Below, piece by piece: positions 25,483 through 35,619 of a stretch of 64,000 nt of DNA. This DNA comes from Methanoculleus oceani (GTDB lineage: Archaea > Halobacteriota > Methanomicrobia > Methanomicrobiales > Methanoculleaceae). Position 1 is the first letter of the stretch, and each line of letters opens with the position of its first letter. Location of the stretch: contig NZ_QFDM01000002.1 in the NCBI RefSeq assembly GCF_023702065.1, positions 744,001 through 808,000 on the forward strand. The letters are read 5' to 3'. Below the pieces are notes generated by a model, which made no database searches, was not told the DNA's origin, and saw nothing but the letters and a program-made list of their open reading frames with translations. A program made the position numbers and the translations under genes.

Positions 25483-27834
25483 TCACTCGTATTCCTCCCC
25501 GTCTGGATACTCGTCGTCTTCGTCGCCCCCGGTAGGGAGGGCTTCGCGGAGAGTAAACCTGAACACCGCACCGAGATCCTGCCGCTCCTCCACCCGGTCT
25601 TCCACGCGGATGGTGCCGCCGTAGCGCTCGACGAGGGTGCGGACGATGAAGAGCCCGAGCCCGTCGCCGCACCCCCCGACCCATCCCCGCTCGAACCGGG
25701 AAAAGATCGACTCCTTCATGGGGTCGGGAATGCCCGGCCCGGTATCCTCGACGGAGACCAGCACGTTCTCGCCGTCGTAATCGTCCACCCGGATGGCGAT
25801 CCTGACCTCCGGACCGCCGGACTTGACGGCGTTCCGGATAAGGTTGGCGAAGACCTCGGAGAGGAGATCGTCCGCCCAGACCTGGCGATGGCTGACCGAA
25901 AACTCAATCGCAACGTCCGGGAAGGCGGCGACTTCCTCCCTGATGACGAGATCGAGGTCGACCGGCCCGACGTCGGGCGAGTCGTGGTGAATGCGGCGGA
26001 TGGTGGTGACGTTCCCGAGGATCTCTGCGCTTCTCTCGATGCTGCTCCGGATCTTTCTCGCATACAGCGCACCCTCACCCTCCAGCATCTCGGTGAGGAG
26101 ATCGGCATAGAGACCCGAGACGTTCTCGGCGTTCCTGATATCGTGCGTCATGATATCCAGGTAGAGGTTCGCCTCCCGGTTCGCCGCCTCCAGTTTCTTG
26201 TGCAGCATCCCTTTCAGGATACCCGACCCGATCTCTTTTCCCACCATCTCCAGAAGCGTCATCTCCTCGCGGGAGAAGGATTCCTTCGTCCTGCTGCCGA
26301 CATAAACCGCCCCGACAACGACCGATTCGGCGATGAGAGGGATGCAGGCGAGCGCCGATACCTCGAGCTCCTCGAGTATGCTGGCCTCGATGGAACTCAG
26401 GTCGGGCTGCCGCTGCATGTAGCGGGGCTGGCCGGCGATGAAGATGAAGTTGAACGGCCAGTGGTGGACCTTGATGATACGGCTCCGGGACATGCACGAT
26501 GTGGGCAGCCCCCTCTGGTGCTGCAGCAGGGCCCGCTTGCGCTCGGCATCGAGCATGTAGACGATGCCGACATGGAACCCCATCAATTCGAGCGTCTTCT
26601 CGAGCGACTCCTCCAGGAGTTCGGCAAGAGAGAGGGAGGCAGCCGAGACCCCGACCACCTGGTTGAGTACCATGAGCTGCTCGTTCCGGGTGCGGGTCTC
26701 CTCTTCCGCCCGTTTTCGTTCGGTGATATCCATCACGCCGGCAATAGAGCCCCGGAATTCTCCGGATTCATCGGTGAACGGAGACGCTATCATCAGCGCG
26801 GTGATCCGGTCGCCTTCCTTCCGGACGAATTCGCACTCGTACTGCTCCCGGGTGCCGTCTCTCCGGCAGTTCAGACGGTCCCGCATCGCGGCACCGCAGG
26901 AAGGAGAGAGGAACGAATAGAGGGACTTTCCAATCATCTCTGCCGGGGCATAGCCGAGCATCTCCGCCATCCGGGGGTTGACAAACGACGTGCAGGCGTC
27001 CCGGTCGATCACCCATATCCCCTCGCTGAGGCTCTCCACGACGAGCCGGTACTTCTGCTCGCTCTGCCTGAGCGCCTCCTCCGCCCTTTTGCGGCCGGTG
27101 ATGTCGAGCACCCCGGCAAGACATCCGCCAAAGGCGCCGGCAGTATCGATGATCGGCGACGTGACCACGAGGGCGTGGATGCTTCTCCCGTCGCTGTGGA
27201 GAAGGTCCAGTTCGAACTCCTGCCTCCGGTCGGTCAGCCAGCAGAACGGATGTCCGGCGGCCGAAACGGTCCCGTCGAAGAGCCCGGTGATCGGCGACCC
27301 TATCAGGCTTCCGGCAGGGCAACCGAGGATCTCCTCCATGCGCGGGTTTGCGAAGGTGATGATACCGGTCTCGTTCACGGCGAGAACGCCTTCGTTGAGG
27401 TTCTCGACCAGTCTCCTGTACATCGTCTCCGAGTGCCGGAGCGCGAGTTCCACCCGCGTCCGCTCCAGTGCGTACCTGACGGCCCGGCAGAGCAGTTCGC
27501 CGTCGGTCTTCTCTTTGACGAGGTAATCCTGCGCGCCGCGCTGCATCGCACGGAGGGCAGCGGGGTCGTCTCCCCCCGCGGTGAGCACGATGATCGGGAT
27601 GTCGGGCGCCGTCCGGCGCAGGCGGTCGAAGGCCGCCGTCCCCTGCCCGGCCGCGAGATCGAGGTCGAGGAGCACCACGTCGATTCCACCCCCCGATACC
27701 AGAGCAAGCCCGTCTTCGGGGCGTCCGCAGTGCGCCACCTCGACCTCGCGTCCGCACTCCCCGAGCATCTCCCGGACACTCCGGAGATCGCCGGGGTTCT
27801 CCCCGATCAACAATACTCTCAACGGTTCGCTCAT
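25483..27834 (-). CDS. Hybrid sensor histidine kinase (REC-PAS-PAS-GAF-HATPase)
   Basis: A 783-residue cytoplasmic sensor kinase. The order is an N-terminal receiver (residues about 5-120, phospho-accepting Asp in VVLLDLDL and KEKT conserved Lys), two PAS domains (135-255 and 262-380, each ending in MDITERKRAEE or LDITGRKRAEE), a GAF domain (about 395-555), the phospho-acceptor histidine in LDIMTHDIRN, and an ATPase domain with NLIRNAVK, DTGPGIP and GDGLGLFIV. No transmembrane segment is seen. The ATG at 27834 places the receiver at the extreme N-terminus. No cognate regulator is adjacent. Confidence 0.92.
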   Translation of the reverse strand: MSEPLRVLLIGENPGDLRSVREMLGECGREVEVAHCGRPEDGLALVSGGGIDVVLLDLDLAAGQGTAAFDRLRRTAPDIPIIVLTAGGDDPAALRAMQRGAQDYLVKEKTDGELLCRAVRYALERTRVELALRHSETMYRRLVENLNEGVLAVNETGIITFANPRMEEILGCPAGSLIGSPITGLFDGTVSAAGHPFCWLTDRRQEFELDLLHSDGRSIHALVVTSPIIDTAGAFGGCLAGVLDITGRKRAEEALRQSEQKYRLVVESLSEGIWVIDRDACTSFVNPRMAEMLGYAPAEMIGKSLYSFLSPSCGAAMRDRLNCRRDGTREQYECEFVRKEGDRITALMIASPFTDESGEFRGSIAGVMDITERKRAEEETRTRNEQLMVLNQVVGVSAASLSLAELLEESLEKTLELMGFHVGIVYMLDAERKRALLQHQRGLPTSCMSRSRIIKVHHWPFNFIFIAGQPRYMQRQPDLSSIEASILEELEVSALACIPLIAESVVVGAVYVGSRTKESFSREEMTLLEMVGKEIGSGILKGMLHKKLEAANREANLYLDIMTHDIRNAENVSGLYADLLTEMLEGEGALYARKIRSSIERSAEILGNVTTIRRIHHDSPDVGPVDLDLVIREEVAAFPDVAIEFSVSHRQVWADDLLSEVFANLIRNAVKSGGPEVRIAIRVDDYDGENVLVSVEDTGPGIPDPMKESIFSRFERGWVGGCGDGLGLFIVRTLVERYGGTIRVEDRVEERQDLGAVFRFTLREALPTGGDEDDEYPDGEEYE

Positions 27835-28035
27835 GGTATCACTCGTATGCAGGGCCCGGCACCCCCGGTACCGGTCGTGAACCCGGGTAATCCGGCCGGG
27901 GACGGCTGCCGCCGCATCCGGGGGACATCCCGCCGCAGGGCTGCTCGCCGCTCTCCCGCGCGGGTCTGACCGCACGCGGCCGGGTTCTCACTACTGTAGT
28001 ACCGCCTTCGGGGAATTTATACCTCATTCTTTGGG

Positions 28036-28497: not shown

Positions 28498-28508
28498 GAA
28501 TGCTTATC
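28498..28508 (+). promoter_or_regulatory. Promoter element conserved between the two surface-protein genes
   Basis: GAATGCTTATC is located 25 nt before the ATG at 28533. The paralogue has GAATGTTTATC at the same distance. The TTATC part sits where an archaeal TATA box would place the transcript start at the ATG itself, suggesting a leaderless mRNA. Confidence 0.55.
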
Positions 28509-28532
28509 GTTTATGAATTTCTTAAACCTTTC

Positions 28533-31500
28533 ATGGCAAATTTTTTCATAAACATTTCTGTGACGGCACTGTGCCTGATCGTTGCAGCCCTGCTGCTTGT
28601 CGGCACCGCAAGCGCTGTCGGACCGATGCCCCCGACGGCCGCGTTCACCGGCACGCCGACCACCGGCCCGGCGCCTCTCACGGTGCAGTTCACCGATACT
28701 TCAGCAGGGTGGCCGAGCTCATGGTCCTGGGATTTCGGCGACGGCGGGACCTCGACTGAGCGGAACCCCGCGCACGTCTATTCCTCCGCCGGAACCTACA
28801 CGGTCAGCCTGACGGTCACCAACCCGGATGGATCGGACACGGAAACCAGGCCCGATTACATCACGGCCACCTCTCCCCCGCCGGAAGCAGCCTTCAGCGG
28901 CACCCCGACGTCCGGGGCCCCACCCCTGACCGTCTCCTTCACCGACGAATCGACCGGCGACCCGAGCGGGTGGGCGTGGTTCTTCGGCGACGAGACCTAC
29001 GATCAGGCATGGACGCAGGTGAATGCGAATCCCGATTGGTCGAAACGACGAGCCCATACGGCGGTCGTACTGCCGGACGGGGACATCATACTCATGGGCG
29101 GTTGGGCATCCGGAGGTTATCAAAACGACACGTGGCGGTCGGACAATGGCGGCACAACCTGGACGCGGATGAACGCGAGTTCCGGGTGGACGAAAAGAGC
29201 CGAACACACCAGCGTCGCGATGCCGGACGGAAGCATCGTACTCATGGGCGGTTATACCAACGTCGGTGGCGCCACCAGATTGAACGACACCTGGCGGTCG
29301 ACAGATAAGGGCGCAACCTGGACACAGGTGAACGCGAGTCCCGGGTGGACGGCAAGAACCGAGCACACCAGCGTCGCGATAGGCAACAGCATCCTGCTCA
29401 TGGGCGGTACTGACAGCACCCTTAAGAACGATGTGTGGCGGTCGACCGACAATGGCGCAACATGGACGCAAGTGAACGCGAATGCCGGGTGGACGGGAAG
29501 AACCGACCTTACAGCGGTCGCGATGCCGGACGACAGCATCGTAATCATGGGCGGTCAGAGCGGCGGATTTAGGAACGACGTGTGGCGGTCGACCGATCTC
29601 GGCACAACCTGGACGCAGATGACCGAGAATGCGGGGTGGTCGGGAAGAGAGAGCCATACGGCGGCCGTGCTGCCGGACGGGGACATCCTGCTCATGGGCG
29701 GTTGGGCATCCGGAGGTTATCAAAACGACACGTGGCGGTCGGACGATTACGGCGCAACATGGACGCAGGTGAACGCGAGTCCCGGGTGGACGGCACGATG
29801 GGGCTCCACTAGCGTCGCGATGCCGAACGGCAGCATCGTACTCATGGGCGGCGATGACGGCGCCTATACGAACGACGTGTGGCGGCTCCAGACCGCAGGC
29901 TCGACGGCAGAGAACCCCACGCACACCTATACCGCCGCGGGCACCTACTCGGTGGCGCTGCAGGCGTACAACGACGACGGCTATGGCAGCACGCGACGGA
30001 CCGATTACATCACGGTCACCCCTCCTCCACCGGAAGCAGACTTCAGCGGCACCCCGACGTCCGGCACTGCGCCCCTGACCGTATCCTTCACCGACGACTC
30101 CACCGGCGCCCCGACCGGGTGGGCGTGGTTCTTCGGCGACGAGACCTACGATCAGGCATGGACGCAGTTGCCCGACGCCGGGTGGTCGGGGCGGAGTTTC
30201 CCTGTGGCGGTCACGATGCCGAATGGGAACGTCGTACTCATGGGCGGTTTTCCTATCACCGGCGACCTTACGACCGGGAACGACGTGTGGCGGTCAGCCG
30301 ATAACGGCGCAACCTGGACACGGGTGAACGCGAGTGCCGGGTGGACGGGGCGATACGGTCATACGGCGGTCGCGGTCGGCGACAGCATCGTCCTCATGGG
30401 CGGTTTTGACAGCGTTGGCCGTAAGAACGATGTATGGCGGTCGGACGATGACGGCGCAACGTGGACGCGGGTGAACGCGAGTGCCGGGTGGACCCCAAGA
30501 CACTGGCACACCAGCGTTGCGCTGCCGGACGGAAGCATCGTACTCATGGGAGGTTGGGACAGCACCTATCTCCAGGTGAACGATGTCTGGCGGTCGACCG
30601 ATTACGGCGCGACGTGGGAGGAAGTTGCGACGAGTGGCCCCATCTGGACGCCAAGAGAGGACCACGCGGCGGTCACGATGCCGGACGGGAGCATCGTCCT
30701 CATGGGGGGTTATGACGGCACCCGGTTGAACGACGTGTGGCGGTCGGACGATGGCGGCGCGACGTGGACGCAGCAGACCGAGCACGCCGGGTGGACGGCA
30801 CGGGCCTTCCATACGGCCGTCACGATGCCGGACGGGAGCATCGTCCTCATGGGCGGACATGACGGAGCCATGAAGAACGACGTGTGGCGGTCGACCGATA
30901 ACGGCACAACCTGGGAACCGTTGCCCGACGCCGGGTGGGATGCAAGATACGCTCACACCAGCGTCGTGCTGCCGGACGGGAGCATCCTCGTGATGGGCGG
31001 TGAGGACAACGGCATGATCCGTCTGAACGATACGTGGCGGCTCCAGCCCGCAGGATCGACAGAAGAGAACCCGTCGCATGTGTATGATGCTCCGGGTACC
31101 TATACGATAGCGTTGCAGGCATACAATGCCGGTGGGTACGACAGCATATGCGAGATCAATTACATCACGGTCTCGGCCCCCGTCGCCCCAACGGCAGCCT
31201 TCAGCGGCACCCCTACCTCCGGCACAGCGCCCCTGGCCGTTGACTTCACCGACGCCTCGACCGGTTCGCCCACGGTATGGACCTGGGACTTCGGCGACGG
31301 CGCAACCTCGACCGAGCAGAACCCGGCCCACACCTACGCTGCCGCCGGGACCTACACGGTCAACCTCACGGTCGGTAACGCGGTAGGCACCGATATGCTC
31401 TCCCGGAGCGGGTATATCACGGTTACGGAGCCGGAGCCGACGCAGACCCCCACCCCCACCCCGACCCGCAGGCCGGTCTACAGCGGCGGTGGCGGCGGCG

Positions 31501-32129
31501 GCTCAACGGGCGGACCGGACGGATATAACGTGGGTGGCGACTCCGCCGTGAGCAAGGTCACCGTCACCGGCACCGGGCTTGAGATGCTCATCGTCACCGG
31601 CTGGAAGCAGTCCTCCCCGAGGACCGGGATCCCCCCGGCGCCGGGAACCCCGTATCAGTACGTCGACCTGGTGCCGGCCCGGTTTGAGGAGATCACCGGC
31701 GCGAATATCACCTTCACCGTCCCGGCCGCGTGGCTGGAGGAGCATGGATTCACCCCTGAAGAGATCGTGCTCTACCACTACAACGGCACGGCGTGGGAAG
31801 CGCTCCCGACGTGGGTCGTGGATGCCGCCGGGACGACGGTCACCTTCAGGGCCGCGACCCCCGGGTTCTCCCTCTTCGCGATCACCGGGATCGAGCAGGC
31901 CGGTGAAGTGACGATCCCGACAGCGGCACAGACCACCGTACAGGCGGTCGCAGAGCCCACCGCAACGCAGACCGCAGCCGCTCCGCCCGGCGGGCCGGCG
32001 CCGGACTTCCCGCTCGGGACCGTCGCCCTTGTCGCCGGAGTCGTCCTGGTGCTCGCCGCCGGGGGCTACCTGGTCCGGCGGTGGTGGATGCACCGGCAGA
32101 ACCCGGCGCTCTTCCGGGACTACGATTGA
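28533..32129 (+). CDS. Giant surface protein: PKD domains with nested kelch/Asp-box propellers (paralogue A)
   Basis: A secreted, membrane-anchored protein of 1198 residues. The signal peptide is residues 1-28. An intact PKD domain (about 32-113) is followed by two split PKD domains: the first half ends WAWFFGDE, then a six-repeat kelch propeller (about 153-454 and 538-836), then the second half resumes as STAENPTHTY..TYSVAL. A further intact PKD (884-966), a Thr/Pro linker, a PGF-pre-PGF-like domain (about 996-1122), a transmembrane helix and the tail RRWWMHRQNPALFRDYD complete it. Each blade has RxxHTxV, IVLMGG, NDVWRS and an Asp-box STDNGATW. Start 28533 aligns exactly with the paralogue's signal peptide. 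Role, probably adhesion or S-layer association, is inferred. Confidence 0.88.
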   Translation: MANFFINISVTALCLIVAALLLVGTASAVGPMPPTAAFTGTPTTGPAPLTVQFTDTSAGWPSSWSWDFGDGGTSTERNPAHVYSSAGTYTVSLTVTNPDGSDTETRPDYITATSPPPEAAFSGTPTSGAPPLTVSFTDESTGDPSGWAWFFGDETYDQAWTQVNANPDWSKRRAHTAVVLPDGDIILMGGWASGGYQNDTWRSDNGGTTWTRMNASSGWTKRAEHTSVAMPDGSIVLMGGYTNVGGATRLNDTWRSTDKGATWTQVNASPGWTARTEHTSVAIGNSILLMGGTDSTLKNDVWRSTDNGATWTQVNANAGWTGRTDLTAVAMPDDSIVIMGGQSGGFRNDVWRSTDLGTTWTQMTENAGWSGRESHTAAVLPDGDILLMGGWASGGYQNDTWRSDDYGATWTQVNASPGWTARWGSTSVAMPNGSIVLMGGDDGAYTNDVWRLQTAGSTAENPTHTYTAAGTYSVALQAYNDDGYGSTRRTDYITVTPPPPEADFSGTPTSGTAPLTVSFTDDSTGAPTGWAWFFGDETYDQAWTQLPDAGWSGRSFPVAVTMPNGNVVLMGGFPITGDLTTGNDVWRSADNGATWTRVNASAGWTGRYGHTAVAVGDSIVLMGGFDSVGRKNDVWRSDDDGATWTRVNASAGWTPRHWHTSVALPDGSIVLMGGWDSTYLQVNDVWRSTDYGATWEEVATSGPIWTPREDHAAVTMPDGSIVLMGGYDGTRLNDVWRSDDGGATWTQQTEHAGWTARAFHTAVTMPDGSIVLMGGHDGAMKNDVWRSTDNGTTWEPLPDAGWDARYAHTSVVLPDGSILVMGGEDNGMIRLNDTWRLQPAGSTEENPSHVYDAPGTYTIALQAYNAGGYDSICEINYITVSAPVAPTAAFSGTPTSGTAPLAVDFTDASTGSPTVWTWDFGDGATSTEQNPAHTYAAAGTYTVNLTVGNAVGTDMLSRSGYITVTEPEPTQTPTPTPTRRPVYSGGGGGGSTGGPDGYNVGGDSAVSKVTVTGTGLEMLIVTGWKQSSPRTGIPPAPGTPYQYVDLVPARFEEITGANITFTVPAAWLEEHGFTPEEIVLYHYNGTAWEALPTWVVDAAGTTVTFRAATPGFSLFAITGIEQAGEVTIPTAAQTTVQAVAEPTATQTAAAPPGGPAPDFPLGTVALVAGVVLVLAAGGYLVRRWWMHRQNPALFRDYD

Positions 32130-32277
32130 CGCGGCATGACGTGGAAAACATTCAACCATTTTTGATCGAAACCCGATATAAGACGGGAACTGTATACCAC
32201 GCTCCATCCGGTGGCCCGTGGCCATTAAAGGGCAAATCAGGCCCCGAATACCCCCTACTGACCTGAATTGAAAATCG

Positions 32278-32288
32278 GAATGTTTATC
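32278..32288 (+). promoter_or_regulatory. Promoter element of surface-protein paralogue B
   Basis: GAATGTTTATC, 26 nt before the ATG at 32314, matches the element before paralogue A with one difference. Flanking sequence is not conserved to the same extent, which points to a functional promoter core. Confidence 0.55.
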
Positions 32289-32313
32289 CCAATAAAAATT
32301 TTTTTCTTCCTAT

Positions 32314-35300
32314 ATGGATGATCGTCGAAAGAACATTCCCCCAATGGCGCTGTGCCTGTTCATTGCAGTCCTCCTGCTCATCGGCACCGCGAGCGCCGCC
32401 GCCCCGGAAGCGGCGTTTGGCGGCACGCCGACCTCCGGCGTCGTACCCCTGACCGTAGACTTCACCGACCAATCGACCGGCGATCCGGATGGCCGGGCGT
32501 GGTTCTTCGGCGACGAGACCTACGGCGAAGCCTGGACGGAGCAGACCGGCAATGCCGGGTGGTCTGAGCGGTACAGTCATACGACGGTCGCGATGCCGAA
32601 CGGCAGCATCGTCCTCATGGGTGGTGGGAAGACTGGTGTGCCTAGCCTCTATGAAAACGACACGTGGGTGTCACACGATTATGGCACGACGTGGACGCTG
32701 GTGAACGCAAGTTCCGGGTGGGGGGCACGCCTGGACCATACGGCGGTCGTGATCGGTGATAGTATCGTACTCATGGGCGGTAAGAGCGGTGTCACCTTCC
32801 TGAACGACACGTGGGTGTCGCACGACTGCGGCGCAACATGGACCGAGGTGAACGCGAGTGCCGGGTGGTCGGCACGCTACTGTCACACCAGTGTCGCACT
32901 GCCGGACGGGAGCATCCTGCTCATGGGCGGTTCTAACGGCACCTACCTGAACGACACGTGGGTGTCACACGATTACGGCACAACGTGGGAGGAGGTGAAC
33001 GGGAGCTCCGGGTGGTCAGCACGCTCATCCTCTAGAGCGGTCGCGATAGACAGCAGCATCGTACTCATAGGCGGTTTTGACGCCAGCGGCCACGTGAACG
33101 ATGTGTGGCGCTCGACCGACGGCGGAGCCACATGGACACTGGCGACCGAGCATGCCGGGTGGGAGGCAAGAGATGGCTATACCGCGGTCGCGATGCCGGA
33201 TGGCAGCATCGTACTCATGGGTGGTGGGGATGCTTACCCCTATAAAAACGACGTGTGGCGGTCGACCGATGGCGGAGCCGCATGGACGCAGCTGCCGAAT
33301 GGCGGGTGGTCGGCAAGAATCTATCACACCAGCGTCGCGATGCCGGACGGGAGCATCCTGCTCATGGGTGGTTATAATGGCCCTACCTACCTGAACGACG
33401 TGTGGCGGCTCGACCCCGTGGGCTCGACGGAACAGAACCCGTCGCACATCTATACCGCTACGGGCACCTACACGGTAGCATTGCAGGTGTTCAACGGCGA
33501 CGGGTACAACAGTACGCGCGAGATCAATTACATCACGGTTGAGGCCCCGGTTGCCCCGACAGCAGCGTTCAGCGCCGACCTGACGTCCGGTCCAGCACCG
33601 CTGACCGTGCAGTTCACTGACTCTTCGACCGACATACCGACCGGCTGGGCATGGTTCTTCGGCGATGAGACGTACGAGGAGCCGTGGACGCAGGTGAACG
33701 AGAGTGCCGGGTGGCCGGGGCGGTATGTCTATACGGCGGTCACGATGCCGGACGGAAGCATCCTCCTCATGGGCGGTCATGGCGACACCTACTTGCACGA
33801 CGTATGGCGGTCGACCGACGGCGGAGCCACGTGGACGCTGGCGACCGGTAACGCCGGGTGGTCGGCAAGAACCGGCCACACCAGCGTCGTGCTGCCGGAC
33901 GGAAGCATCGTACTCATGGGCGGTCATCACGGCCCCTCATTGAATGACACGTGGCGGTCGACCGACGGCGGCGTTCACTGGGACCTGCTACCGAATACCG
34001 GGTGGCCGGCAAGAGATGGACATACCAGCGTCGTGCTGCCGGACGAGAGCATTGTACTCATGGGCGGTTCTAACAGCACCACCCGATTTAACGACGTGTG
34101 GCGGTCACACGATGGCGGCGCAACCTGGACGCAACAGACCGGCAATGCCGGGTGGCCGGCAAGAACCTATCACACCAGCGTCGTGATGCCGGACGGGAGC
34201 ATCGTCCTCATGGGCGGTTGGAACGGCACCTACAGGAACGACGTGTGGCGGTCGGAAGATGGCGGCGCAACCTGGACGCAACAGACCGGTAACGCCGGGT
34301 GGGGAGCAAGGGCCATTCACAGCAGCGTCGCGATGCCGGACGGAAGCATCCTGCTCATGGGCGGTGATGACGGCTATAACTATAATAACGACGTGTGGCG
34401 TTCGACCGATTACGGCGCAACGTGGACGCGGGTGGACGAGAGTGCCGACTGGTCGGGGCGGTATGGACATACGGCGGTCGTGCTGCCGGACGGCAGCGTC
34501 GTACTCATTGGCGGCAAGAGCGGTTCCGTTTATATGAACGATATATGGCGGTTCGACCCCGTGGGCTCGTCGGAACAGAACCCCACGCACGAATACGCCG
34601 CTTCGGGCACCTACTCGGTAGCACTGCAGGCATACAATGCCGCCGGGTACGGCAGTACGCGCGAGGTCAATTACATCACGGTTACCTCCTCTGATGTTCC
34701 GACAGCAGCCTTCAGCGGTACGCCGACGTCCGGCACCGCACCCCTGATCGTGCAATTCACCGACGCCTCAACCGGTTCGCCCATGGCATGGAACTGGTCG
34801 TTTGGGGACGGCGAGTGGTTCAACACCACGAGCGCGGCGGAGAAAAGCCCCACGCACACCTATGCCTCTGCCGGGACCTACACGGTCAACCTGACGGTCG
34901 GCAACCTGGGAGGAGACGACACGCACTCCGAGGCAGGGTACGTCACGGTCACGGCCCCGACGCCGACCCCCGGGCCGATCTACGACAGCGGCGGCGACAG
35001 CCCGACGGTCACCCCCGTGCAGACCCCCACCACCGTCGAAATGAGCGTGGGCGGGAACTCGCCCGTGAGCAAAGTCAGCGTCACCGGCACCGGGATCGGC
35101 GGGCTCACCGTCACCGGCACGGTGCAGTCCCTGCCGGGCATCGTATACGAGTACTTCAGCCTCGTGCCTGCCCGGTACACAACCATCACCGCGGCAACGA
35201 TCACCTTCTCCGTCCCGGCCGCGTGGCTCGAGGAGCACGGCCTCTCGGCGGAGGATATCGTGCTTTACCATCATAACGGCGCGGCGTGGACCGCCCTGCC

Positions 35301-35619
35301 GACGACGGCCGGGGCCACCGAAAACGGGCAGGTCACCTTCACGGCAACGAGCCCCGGGTTCTCCCTCTTCGCGATCTGCGGAGTCGAGCAGGCGGGTGCG
35401 GTTATTACGCCAACTGCAGCGACGACGACGTCGCGTGCGGTCGCAGAACCCACCGCGGAGCAGACCACGGCCGTGCTGCCCCAACCGGCGCCAGAATTCC
35501 CGCTTCCGATGATCGCCCTTGTCACCGGGGCCGTCCTGGTGCTGGCCGGGGCCGGATACCTGATCCGGCGCTGGTGGATGCGGCGGCAGAACCCGGCGCT
35601 CTTCCGGAATTACGACTGA
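32314..35619 (+). CDS. Giant surface protein: PKD domains with nested kelch/Asp-box propellers (paralogue B)
   Basis: A 1101-residue paralogue of the preceding protein. Its signal peptide (ALCLFIAVLLLIGTASA) aligns without gaps to that of A. It lacks A's first intact PKD. Two split PKD domains each hold a six-blade kelch/Asp-box propeller (about residues 68-367 and 451-749). In the first propeller three blades have WVSHDYGTTW in place of WRSTDGGATW. An intact PKD (796-882), a PGF-pre-PGF-like domain, a stalk, a transmembrane helix (about 1064-1087) and RRWWMRRQNPALFRNYD follow. Many Asn-x-Ser/Thr sites suggest glycosylation. Probably cell-surface; ligand unknown. Confidence 0.88.
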   Translation: MDDRRKNIPPMALCLFIAVLLLIGTASAAAPEAAFGGTPTSGVVPLTVDFTDQSTGDPDGRAWFFGDETYGEAWTEQTGNAGWSERYSHTTVAMPNGSIVLMGGGKTGVPSLYENDTWVSHDYGTTWTLVNASSGWGARLDHTAVVIGDSIVLMGGKSGVTFLNDTWVSHDCGATWTEVNASAGWSARYCHTSVALPDGSILLMGGSNGTYLNDTWVSHDYGTTWEEVNGSSGWSARSSSRAVAIDSSIVLIGGFDASGHVNDVWRSTDGGATWTLATEHAGWEARDGYTAVAMPDGSIVLMGGGDAYPYKNDVWRSTDGGAAWTQLPNGGWSARIYHTSVAMPDGSILLMGGYNGPTYLNDVWRLDPVGSTEQNPSHIYTATGTYTVALQVFNGDGYNSTREINYITVEAPVAPTAAFSADLTSGPAPLTVQFTDSSTDIPTGWAWFFGDETYEEPWTQVNESAGWPGRYVYTAVTMPDGSILLMGGHGDTYLHDVWRSTDGGATWTLATGNAGWSARTGHTSVVLPDGSIVLMGGHHGPSLNDTWRSTDGGVHWDLLPNTGWPARDGHTSVVLPDESIVLMGGSNSTTRFNDVWRSHDGGATWTQQTGNAGWPARTYHTSVVMPDGSIVLMGGWNGTYRNDVWRSEDGGATWTQQTGNAGWGARAIHSSVAMPDGSILLMGGDDGYNYNNDVWRSTDYGATWTRVDESADWSGRYGHTAVVLPDGSVVLIGGKSGSVYMNDIWRFDPVGSSEQNPTHEYAASGTYSVALQAYNAAGYGSTREVNYITVTSSDVPTAAFSGTPTSGTAPLIVQFTDASTGSPMAWNWSFGDGEWFNTTSAAEKSPTHTYASAGTYTVNLTVGNLGGDDTHSEAGYVTVTAPTPTPGPIYDSGGDSPTVTPVQTPTTVEMSVGGNSPVSKVSVTGTGIGGLTVTGTVQSLPGIVYEYFSLVPARYTTITAATITFSVPAAWLEEHGLSAEDIVLYHHNGAAWTALPTTAGATENGQVTFTATSPGFSLFAICGVEQAGAVITPTAATTTSRAVAEPTAEQTTAVLPQPAPEFPLPMIALVTGAVLVLAGAGYLIRRWWMRRQNPALFRNYD

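Follow-up and report, generated by a model that had tools for sequence, protein, structure and literature searches.

Six-bladed kelch/Asp-box propellers nested inside split PKD domains in predicted surface proteins of Methanoculleus oceani and related archaea

The stretch of DNA analyzed here (the window: 64,000 nucleotides of Methanoculleus oceani, positions 744,001 to 808,000 of contig NZ_QFDM01000002.1, within a 2.46-Mb genome of 3 contigs) carries two adjoining open reading frames (ORFs) on the + strand whose products are paralogues: protein 1 (28500-32129, 1209 residues) and protein 2 (32314-35619, 1101 residues). The start at 28533 assigned to protein 1 by a first-pass annotation, made from the sequence alone, is an internal ATG. 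Protein 1 consists, in order, of a signal peptide, a PKD domain, two nested units, a second PKD domain, a low-complexity linker, a PGF-pre-PGF domain, a transmembrane segment and a basic tail; protein 2 has a signal peptide, two nested units, one PKD domain, a PGF-pre-PGF domain, a transmembrane segment and a tail. The evidence given below shows, or strongly supports, that each nested unit is a discontinuous PKD domain (an immunoglobulin-like [Ig-like] fold), with a complete six-bladed kelch/Asp-box propeller housed in the loop that follows strand C (WxFFGDE).

Unit 1 comprises an N-terminal PKD half ending in WAWFFGDE (28875-28994, residues 126-165), a propeller insert of 301 residues (28995-29897, residues 166-466) and a C-terminal PKD half that begins GSTAENPTHTY (29898-30023, residues 467-508). 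Unit 2 is built in the same way (N-terminal half 30024-30143, residues 509-548; 303-residue insert 30144-31052, residues 549-851; C-terminal half 31053-31178, residues 852-893), as are unit 3 (N-terminal half 32401-32517, residues 30-68; 301-residue insert 32518-33420, residues 69-369; C-terminal half 33421-33546, residues 370-411) and unit 4 (33553-33669, residues 414-452; 298-residue insert 33670-34563, residues 453-750; 34564-34689, residues 751-792) of protein 2. The four split domains thus occupy residues 126-508 and 509-893 of protein 1 and residues 30-411 and 414-792 of protein 2. At the insertion point the PKD motif WDFGDG is changed to W[FY]FGDE; the break follows FGDE, and the chain resumes 298-303 residues later at GS[TS]x[EQ]NP[ST]H. 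The four splits described in the first-pass annotation therefore stand with two corrections: the strand before the break, given there as WAWFFGDE, reads RAWFFGDE in unit 3, and the resuming motif, given as [TE]ENP, is [AE]ENP in protein 1 and EQNP in protein 2.

The two halves of each split domain together amount to one PKD domain. Joined, they are 81-82 residues long, as compared with 82, 82 and 87 residues for the three intact PKD domains of the same proteins, namely residues 44-125 (28629-28874, motif WSWDFGDG, best PF18911 stretch 45-122) and 896-977 (31185-31430, WTWDFGDG, PKD_4 E-value 7e-20) of protein 1 and residues 795-881 (34696-34956, WNWSFGDG, PF18911 796-879) of protein 2. With the insert removed, all four joined domains match PKD_4 over most of the model (E-values 4e-12 to 9e-16) and pass the Pfam cut-offs for PKD_4 and PKD (PF18911/PF00801); for unit 1 the PKD_4 E-value is 9e-16 for the joined halves, 7e-4 for the N-terminal half alone and 5e-8 for the C-terminal half alone. 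Over 393 columns the units are approximately 61% identical to unit 1. Chance can be excluded as a source of these matches: for the whole proteins, the best Pfam E-values are 1e-62 (a kelch model) and 1e-52 (PKD_4).

Each of the four inserts contains exactly six [MI]GG strands, six [NH]D[VTI]W strands and five Asp-boxes (SxDxGxxW or SHDxGxxW), for window totals of 24 blades and 20 Asp-boxes, and the earlier count of exactly six repeats per propeller is confirmed. The inserts qualify as kelch propellers (a di-glycine strand b and an N-D-x-W strand c in 24/24 blades, with Pfam kelch families above cut-off) and equally as Asp-box propellers (five boxes per six blades in 4/4 copies). Velcro-closed Asp-box propellers have n-1 boxes at most, and 1+3 closure is the norm (PMC2716378); the nested units conform to this. 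Blade 6 has no Asp-box hairpin, and its strand d is supplied by the segment just after the PKD break; the earlier suggestion that this segment completes the last repeat was right as to velcro closure, with the amendment that strand d is supplied and not the Asp-box turn. Blade 6 is consequently the joining point, its strand c leading into the PKD domain and its strand d returning from it, and there is strong support for the view that the PKD domain stands in place of the blade 6 c-d (Asp-box) hairpin, with no long linker required. The natural ends of the propeller are adjacent and antiparallel. In four free-standing propellers of related archaea, secreted or membrane-anchored (loci L135, L136, L138 and L141), strand d likewise comes first (for example, GNWTEI or SEWTEV) and a strand c without an Asp-box comes last; because these termini match the nested ones, an ordinary velcro-closed propeller can enter a PKD loop by its natural ends, and no circular permutation is needed.

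Mean blade-to-blade identity inside one propeller is 55.9%. In the first propeller, blades 1-2 (29010-29251) and blades 5-6 (29610-29851) share a 242-nucleotide stretch that is 83% identical and carries the same b-c loop (WASGGYQ), which reads as recent copying or conversion within that propeller.

We modeled unit 1 with AlphaFold2, using as input an alignment of 66 units (alignment A2). The model has a mean predicted local distance difference test score (pLDDT) of 97.4 and a predicted template modeling score (pTM) of 0.93, with no residue below 70 and every 10-residue block at 94-98. Its strands run in the order d (47-50), five rounds of a-b-c-d, then a-b-c (312-315, 320-327 and 331-339), followed by the PKD strands 349-352, 356-366 and 369-381; by this order, strand d of the last blade is where the chain enters the propeller, and strand c of that blade is where it exits. 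The fold search (Foldseek, VIA-align) covers model residues 42-342, which is the propeller, with the PKD part outside the matches. Among solved structures, model residues 42-341 are closest to the six-bladed LZTR1 kelch domain (Z 36.4, 291 residues aligned, root mean square deviation 2.5 Å), and further matches are KLHDC2, KLHDC3, NS1-BP, YjhT (2uvk, Z 32.2) and Keap1. A tandem model of 852 residues, built from 10 sequences (pLDDT 80.6, pTM 0.51), allows a split and an intact PKD domain to be compared: strands start at 6, 12, 17, 31 / 348, 355, 370 in the split domain and at 771, 777, 782, 796, (806), 818, 825, 841 in the intact one, so that strand order is the same and spacings are equal within one residue on each side of the break, the intact domain having one extra short strand. 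Packing of the two PKD halves against each other, which the first-pass annotation had proposed as something a structure prediction of the first unit should reveal, is well supported, if indirectly, by these predicted structures; its broader claim, that whole propellers are nested in PKD loops in tandem, is supported by the unit 1 model together with the joined-half matches to PKD_4.

The junction itself carries a signature. Nested PKD domains read W[FY]FGDE at the break, whereas intact PKD domains of the same proteins read WDFGDG or WSFGDG: the aromatic residue is present in 88/89 nested versus 1/68 intact domains, and the final E in 85/89 versus 0/68. When 60 genomes of the order were scanned for the DNA pattern encoding W[FY]FGDExY, 33 sites were found, and by their coordinates 33/33 fall at nested units. 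The signature is not complete in every nested unit (the eight-unit protein described below reads W[FYH]FGDEEF). As judged from sequence, these patterns fit one ancestral insertion that would then have been copied as a whole unit, with junction residues adapted to the guest.

To define the distribution of the architecture we scanned genome contigs and parsed the 73 resulting loci with home-made profiles for the N-terminal half, the blade and the C-terminal half. The loci come mostly from Methanoregula, Methanoculleus, Methanolinea, Methanocalculus and Methanogenium, with one from a Methanosarcina, and they yield 80 distinct nested units outside the window, so that the split-PKD pattern with an intervening propeller does recur in other archaeal surface proteins, as anticipated. 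Among these units 73 are six-bladed, three five-bladed, two four-bladed, one two-bladed and one twelve-bladed; in a second whole-genome sample, partly overlapping the first, six blades were found in 41/41 complete units. Six blades with velcro closure, as first described, is therefore the rule (4/4 window copies, 73/80, 41/41), and a strict 'always six' is ruled out by the apparent inserts of five, four and two blades and the one of twelve; one further propeller is closed without velcro (L066, below). Most of the inserts with other blade numbers come from metagenome or short-read assemblies, where repeat collapse is possible. Within Methanomicrobiales, 61/232 genomes and 12/40 genera have a match (E-value 1e-100 or better); among 393 sampled genomes of the phylum, matches beyond Methanomicrobiales occur in one other family alone (f8), which we take as Methanosarcinaceae because a named Methanosarcina carries the nested unit (L013). 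Nested units per protein range from 1 to 8, the maximum being a 3,366-residue protein with a dockerin-like segment at its end, encoded in a single-contig genome (L174, G330:C1:1007300-1019500). Assembly artefact as the cause of nesting is ruled out by such single-contig genomes (for example, G168, G187, G279, G311 and G330), and named isolates also carry the nested design. No relative turned up among IMG/VR viral contigs, which gives no sign of a viral source at the sensitivity of that scan.

Several variants of the unit were seen. One PKD domain surrounds twelve blades (682 residues; L059/L143, G397:C7), which may be two six-bladed propellers sharing a loop. Another insert (L066/L142, G315:C30) occupies the usual PKD site, has six Asp-boxes, begins at strand a and lacks a velcro strand; it looks like an independently closed variant. 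A single-contig f8 genome (L139, G291:C1:3059000-3064000) encodes a nested unit of approximately 15 near-identical blades followed by a frameshift, with more identical blades past it, a pattern suggestive either of blade amplification still in progress or of a fault in the assembly. Locus L141 (G061:C42:4500-8379) holds a minus-strand ORF of at least 706 residues, cut by the end of its stretch, that encodes a free-standing member of the propeller family, likewise with six blades; beyond the propeller the protein has a membrane segment and then a domain resembling Ser/Thr protein kinases (HHDLKPLN motif), so that the product is apparently a receptor kinase of a Methanocalculus-like archaeon.

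Sequence variation is concentrated on one face of the propeller. In alignment A2 the mean entropy is 3.0-3.3 bits per position in the b-c loops and about 1.8-2.3 in the d-a loops, as compared with about 1.5 in the Asp-box turns, 0-1.5 in the a-b turns and 0.5-1.0 in strands b and c. The geometry of a blade of four antiparallel strands places the b-c and d-a loops on one face and the a-b and c-d turns on the opposite one; with the PKD domain attached at c-d, the variable face is directed away from the stalk formed by the PKD chain. Unit 4 and its counterpart in L012 are 93% identical in the PKD domain and 41% identical in the b-c loops. For the pair L063 and L043 the values are 85% and 21%, and synonymous divergence (dS) is also much greater in the propeller, as would be expected had one propeller been swapped for another within a constant PKD frame.

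Both proteins are predicted to be exported and anchored in the membrane. Each has, near its C terminus, a TIGR04213 match above the curated cut-off of 28, as expected of PGF-pre-PGF surface proteins (protein 1, 31635-31889, 66.1 bits; protein 2, 35125-35382, 63.5 bits), followed by a hydrophobic segment with an RRWW... tail that is recognizable in the sequence (31995-32126 and 35482-35616, respectively); in protein 1 this is a probable membrane anchor, and the two segments with their tails share 82% DNA identity. Neither protein has an NCBIfam match at an E-value of 0.1 or better to the archaeosortase sorting-signal models (PGF-CTERM/PEF-CTERM).

We consider it probable that the propellers are heads for binding, nested unit by unit on a PKD stalk. 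In this reading the PKD chain would serve as the stalk, from which every propeller would project as a rigid side branch, a binding head attached through two covalent links. In an archaeal surface protein, PKD domains withstand force by means of contacts between strand G and the A-A' region (PMC2862302). That resistance sits at the chain ends, so a guest placed behind strand C would hang beside the force path; chain tension would be carried by the N- and C-terminal PKD strands, bypassing the propeller. A nested head would thereby be tethered covalently at two points, fixed in orientation and spared tension; were the propeller placed in series instead, the load would run through its velcro strand. 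The variable b-c and d-a loops would bind putative ligands on other cells, surfaces or polysaccharide. Much more tentatively, the whole may constitute a display cassette of methanogenic archaea, in which a signature PKD frame holds interchangeable six-bladed propellers off the force path, each with one fast-diversifying face and up to eight per protein, providing a variable surface recognition repertoire.

Several points weigh against these proposals. Contact between the PKD halves comes from a predicted structure and is not directly seen, and the tandem model, whose scores are moderate, is unreliable on the arrangement of neighboring units. The stand-alone propeller joined to a kinase (L141) indicates that relatives can serve sensing rather than adhesion. 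Several Methanocalculus and Methanolinea pairs keep their loops better (60-92% identity), so fast loop divergence is not general, and the loop variability may reflect relaxed constraint rather than selection for binding.

Among other explanations of the units, a purely structural role in an S-layer or cell sheath lattice, with no ligand, seems unlikely to us. Archaeal S-layer proteins do contain propellers together with PKD domains (1L0Q, whose PKD part gave a match), and many units per protein with stiff attachment would suit a lattice; occurrence is patchy, however (61/232 genomes), the unit count varies from protein to protein, and one face is hypervariable, to the extent seen between L063 and L043. 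An enzymatic role for the propeller outside the cell (sialidase-, galactose-oxidase- or NanM-like), in place of binding, strikes us as distinctly doubtful. Glycosidases, oxidases and mutarotases do occur among Asp-box and kelch propellers, and YjhT is among the structural matches; against this, the conserved positions are structural blade motifs (GG, NDxW and Asp-box) repeated in all blades, the blades are near-equivalent by their mean identity, the top structural matches are protein-binding kelch domains, and no asymmetric invariant set of catalytic residues is obvious in alignment A2, no residue-level superposition having been made.

We give little credence to the reverse order of events, in which a PKD domain was inserted into the blade 6 c-d hairpin of a propeller. 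The final topology would be the same, the missing sixth Asp-box hairpin lies exactly at the PKD position, and the L066/L142 insert is the one candidate seen for a form whose sixth hairpin is unbroken. The same chains nevertheless contain uninterrupted PKD arrays, which mark PKD as the resident repeat, and the free-standing propellers of related archaea already lack the sixth hairpin and begin at strand d, n-1 boxes with 1+3 closure being normal for Asp-box propellers (PMC2716378). Finally, it is very improbable that the PKD fragments are independent degenerate pieces on either side of a free propeller, with no true nesting: the N-terminal half of unit 1 does score weakly alone, and partial repeats often accumulate in PKD-rich proteins, but complete units show one N-terminal and one C-terminal half around the propeller, the summed half length is that of an intact PKD domain, the halves jointly match the whole Pfam model, and the single-unit model is confident as one body with the strand spacing of an intact domain.

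The nested unit combines features with separate precedents. The methanogen surface protein 1L0Q also joins PKD to a propeller, and its PKD part aligns with ours; it has a seven-bladed YVTN propeller and PKD in series, unlike the six-bladed kelch/Asp-box propeller nested inside PKD described here. The six-bladed kelch domains of LZTR1 and KLHDC2, which are the best matches over the whole propeller (Z 34-36), differ in being eukaryotic, intracellular, about 20% identical and without an Ig-like host domain. A precedent for a guest within an Ig-like fold is the integrin beta hybrid domain, which carries an inserted I-like domain. The Vibrio sialidase has a domain inserted into an Asp-box propeller ('type 2' in PMC2716378). 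In these two the guest is another one or the nesting is reversed, and neither forms a long tandem series in one chain. The archaeal protein A3CWT3 was described as a putative kelch hybrid by Quistgaard and Thirup 2009 (PMC2716378); that paper does not mention a PKD domain, and its section on hybrids describes no nesting. Like the propellers here, A3CWT3 combines kelch and Asp-box motifs. It may be a member of the family described here. Continuous amplification of propellers from single blades is also known (PMC9218822). What is already known thus includes PKD-plus-propeller surface proteins of methanogens, kelch/Asp-box hybrids and insertions into Ig-like domains; within the titles, abstracts and passages of the open-access literature that we searched we found no description of a propeller nested in PKD.

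The units provide a clean, repeated natural case of a whole repeat-built fold inserted into another fold, and they indicate why such nesting works: the adjacent antiparallel ends of a velcro-closed propeller can replace a hairpin. Profile searches report the module as PKD plus loose kelch repeats, and W[FY]FGDE followed by six kelch/Asp-box blades offers a simple annotation signature for a widespread archaeal surface module. If the side-branch proposal is true, the way in which archaea attach binding heads to a stalk under load, yet keep them free of tension, becomes accessible to experiment.

Nested or related units also lie on contigs labeled as bacterial metagenome-assembled genomes (L014, L030, L034, L046, L055 and L062), assigned to Sumerlaeota, Syntrophomonadaceae, Spirochaetaceae, Brocadiaceae and Wenzhouxiangella and all from similarly named sediment samples; these are either mis-binned archaeal contigs or cases of transfer. 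Other bacterial relatives (L064, L067-L069, L073 and L074) are arrays of approximately twelve blades, two propellers' worth, without PKD halves. In the window, a gene for a PAS/response-regulator-type sensor histidine kinase (25483-27975) lies divergently oriented just upstream of both surface-protein genes.

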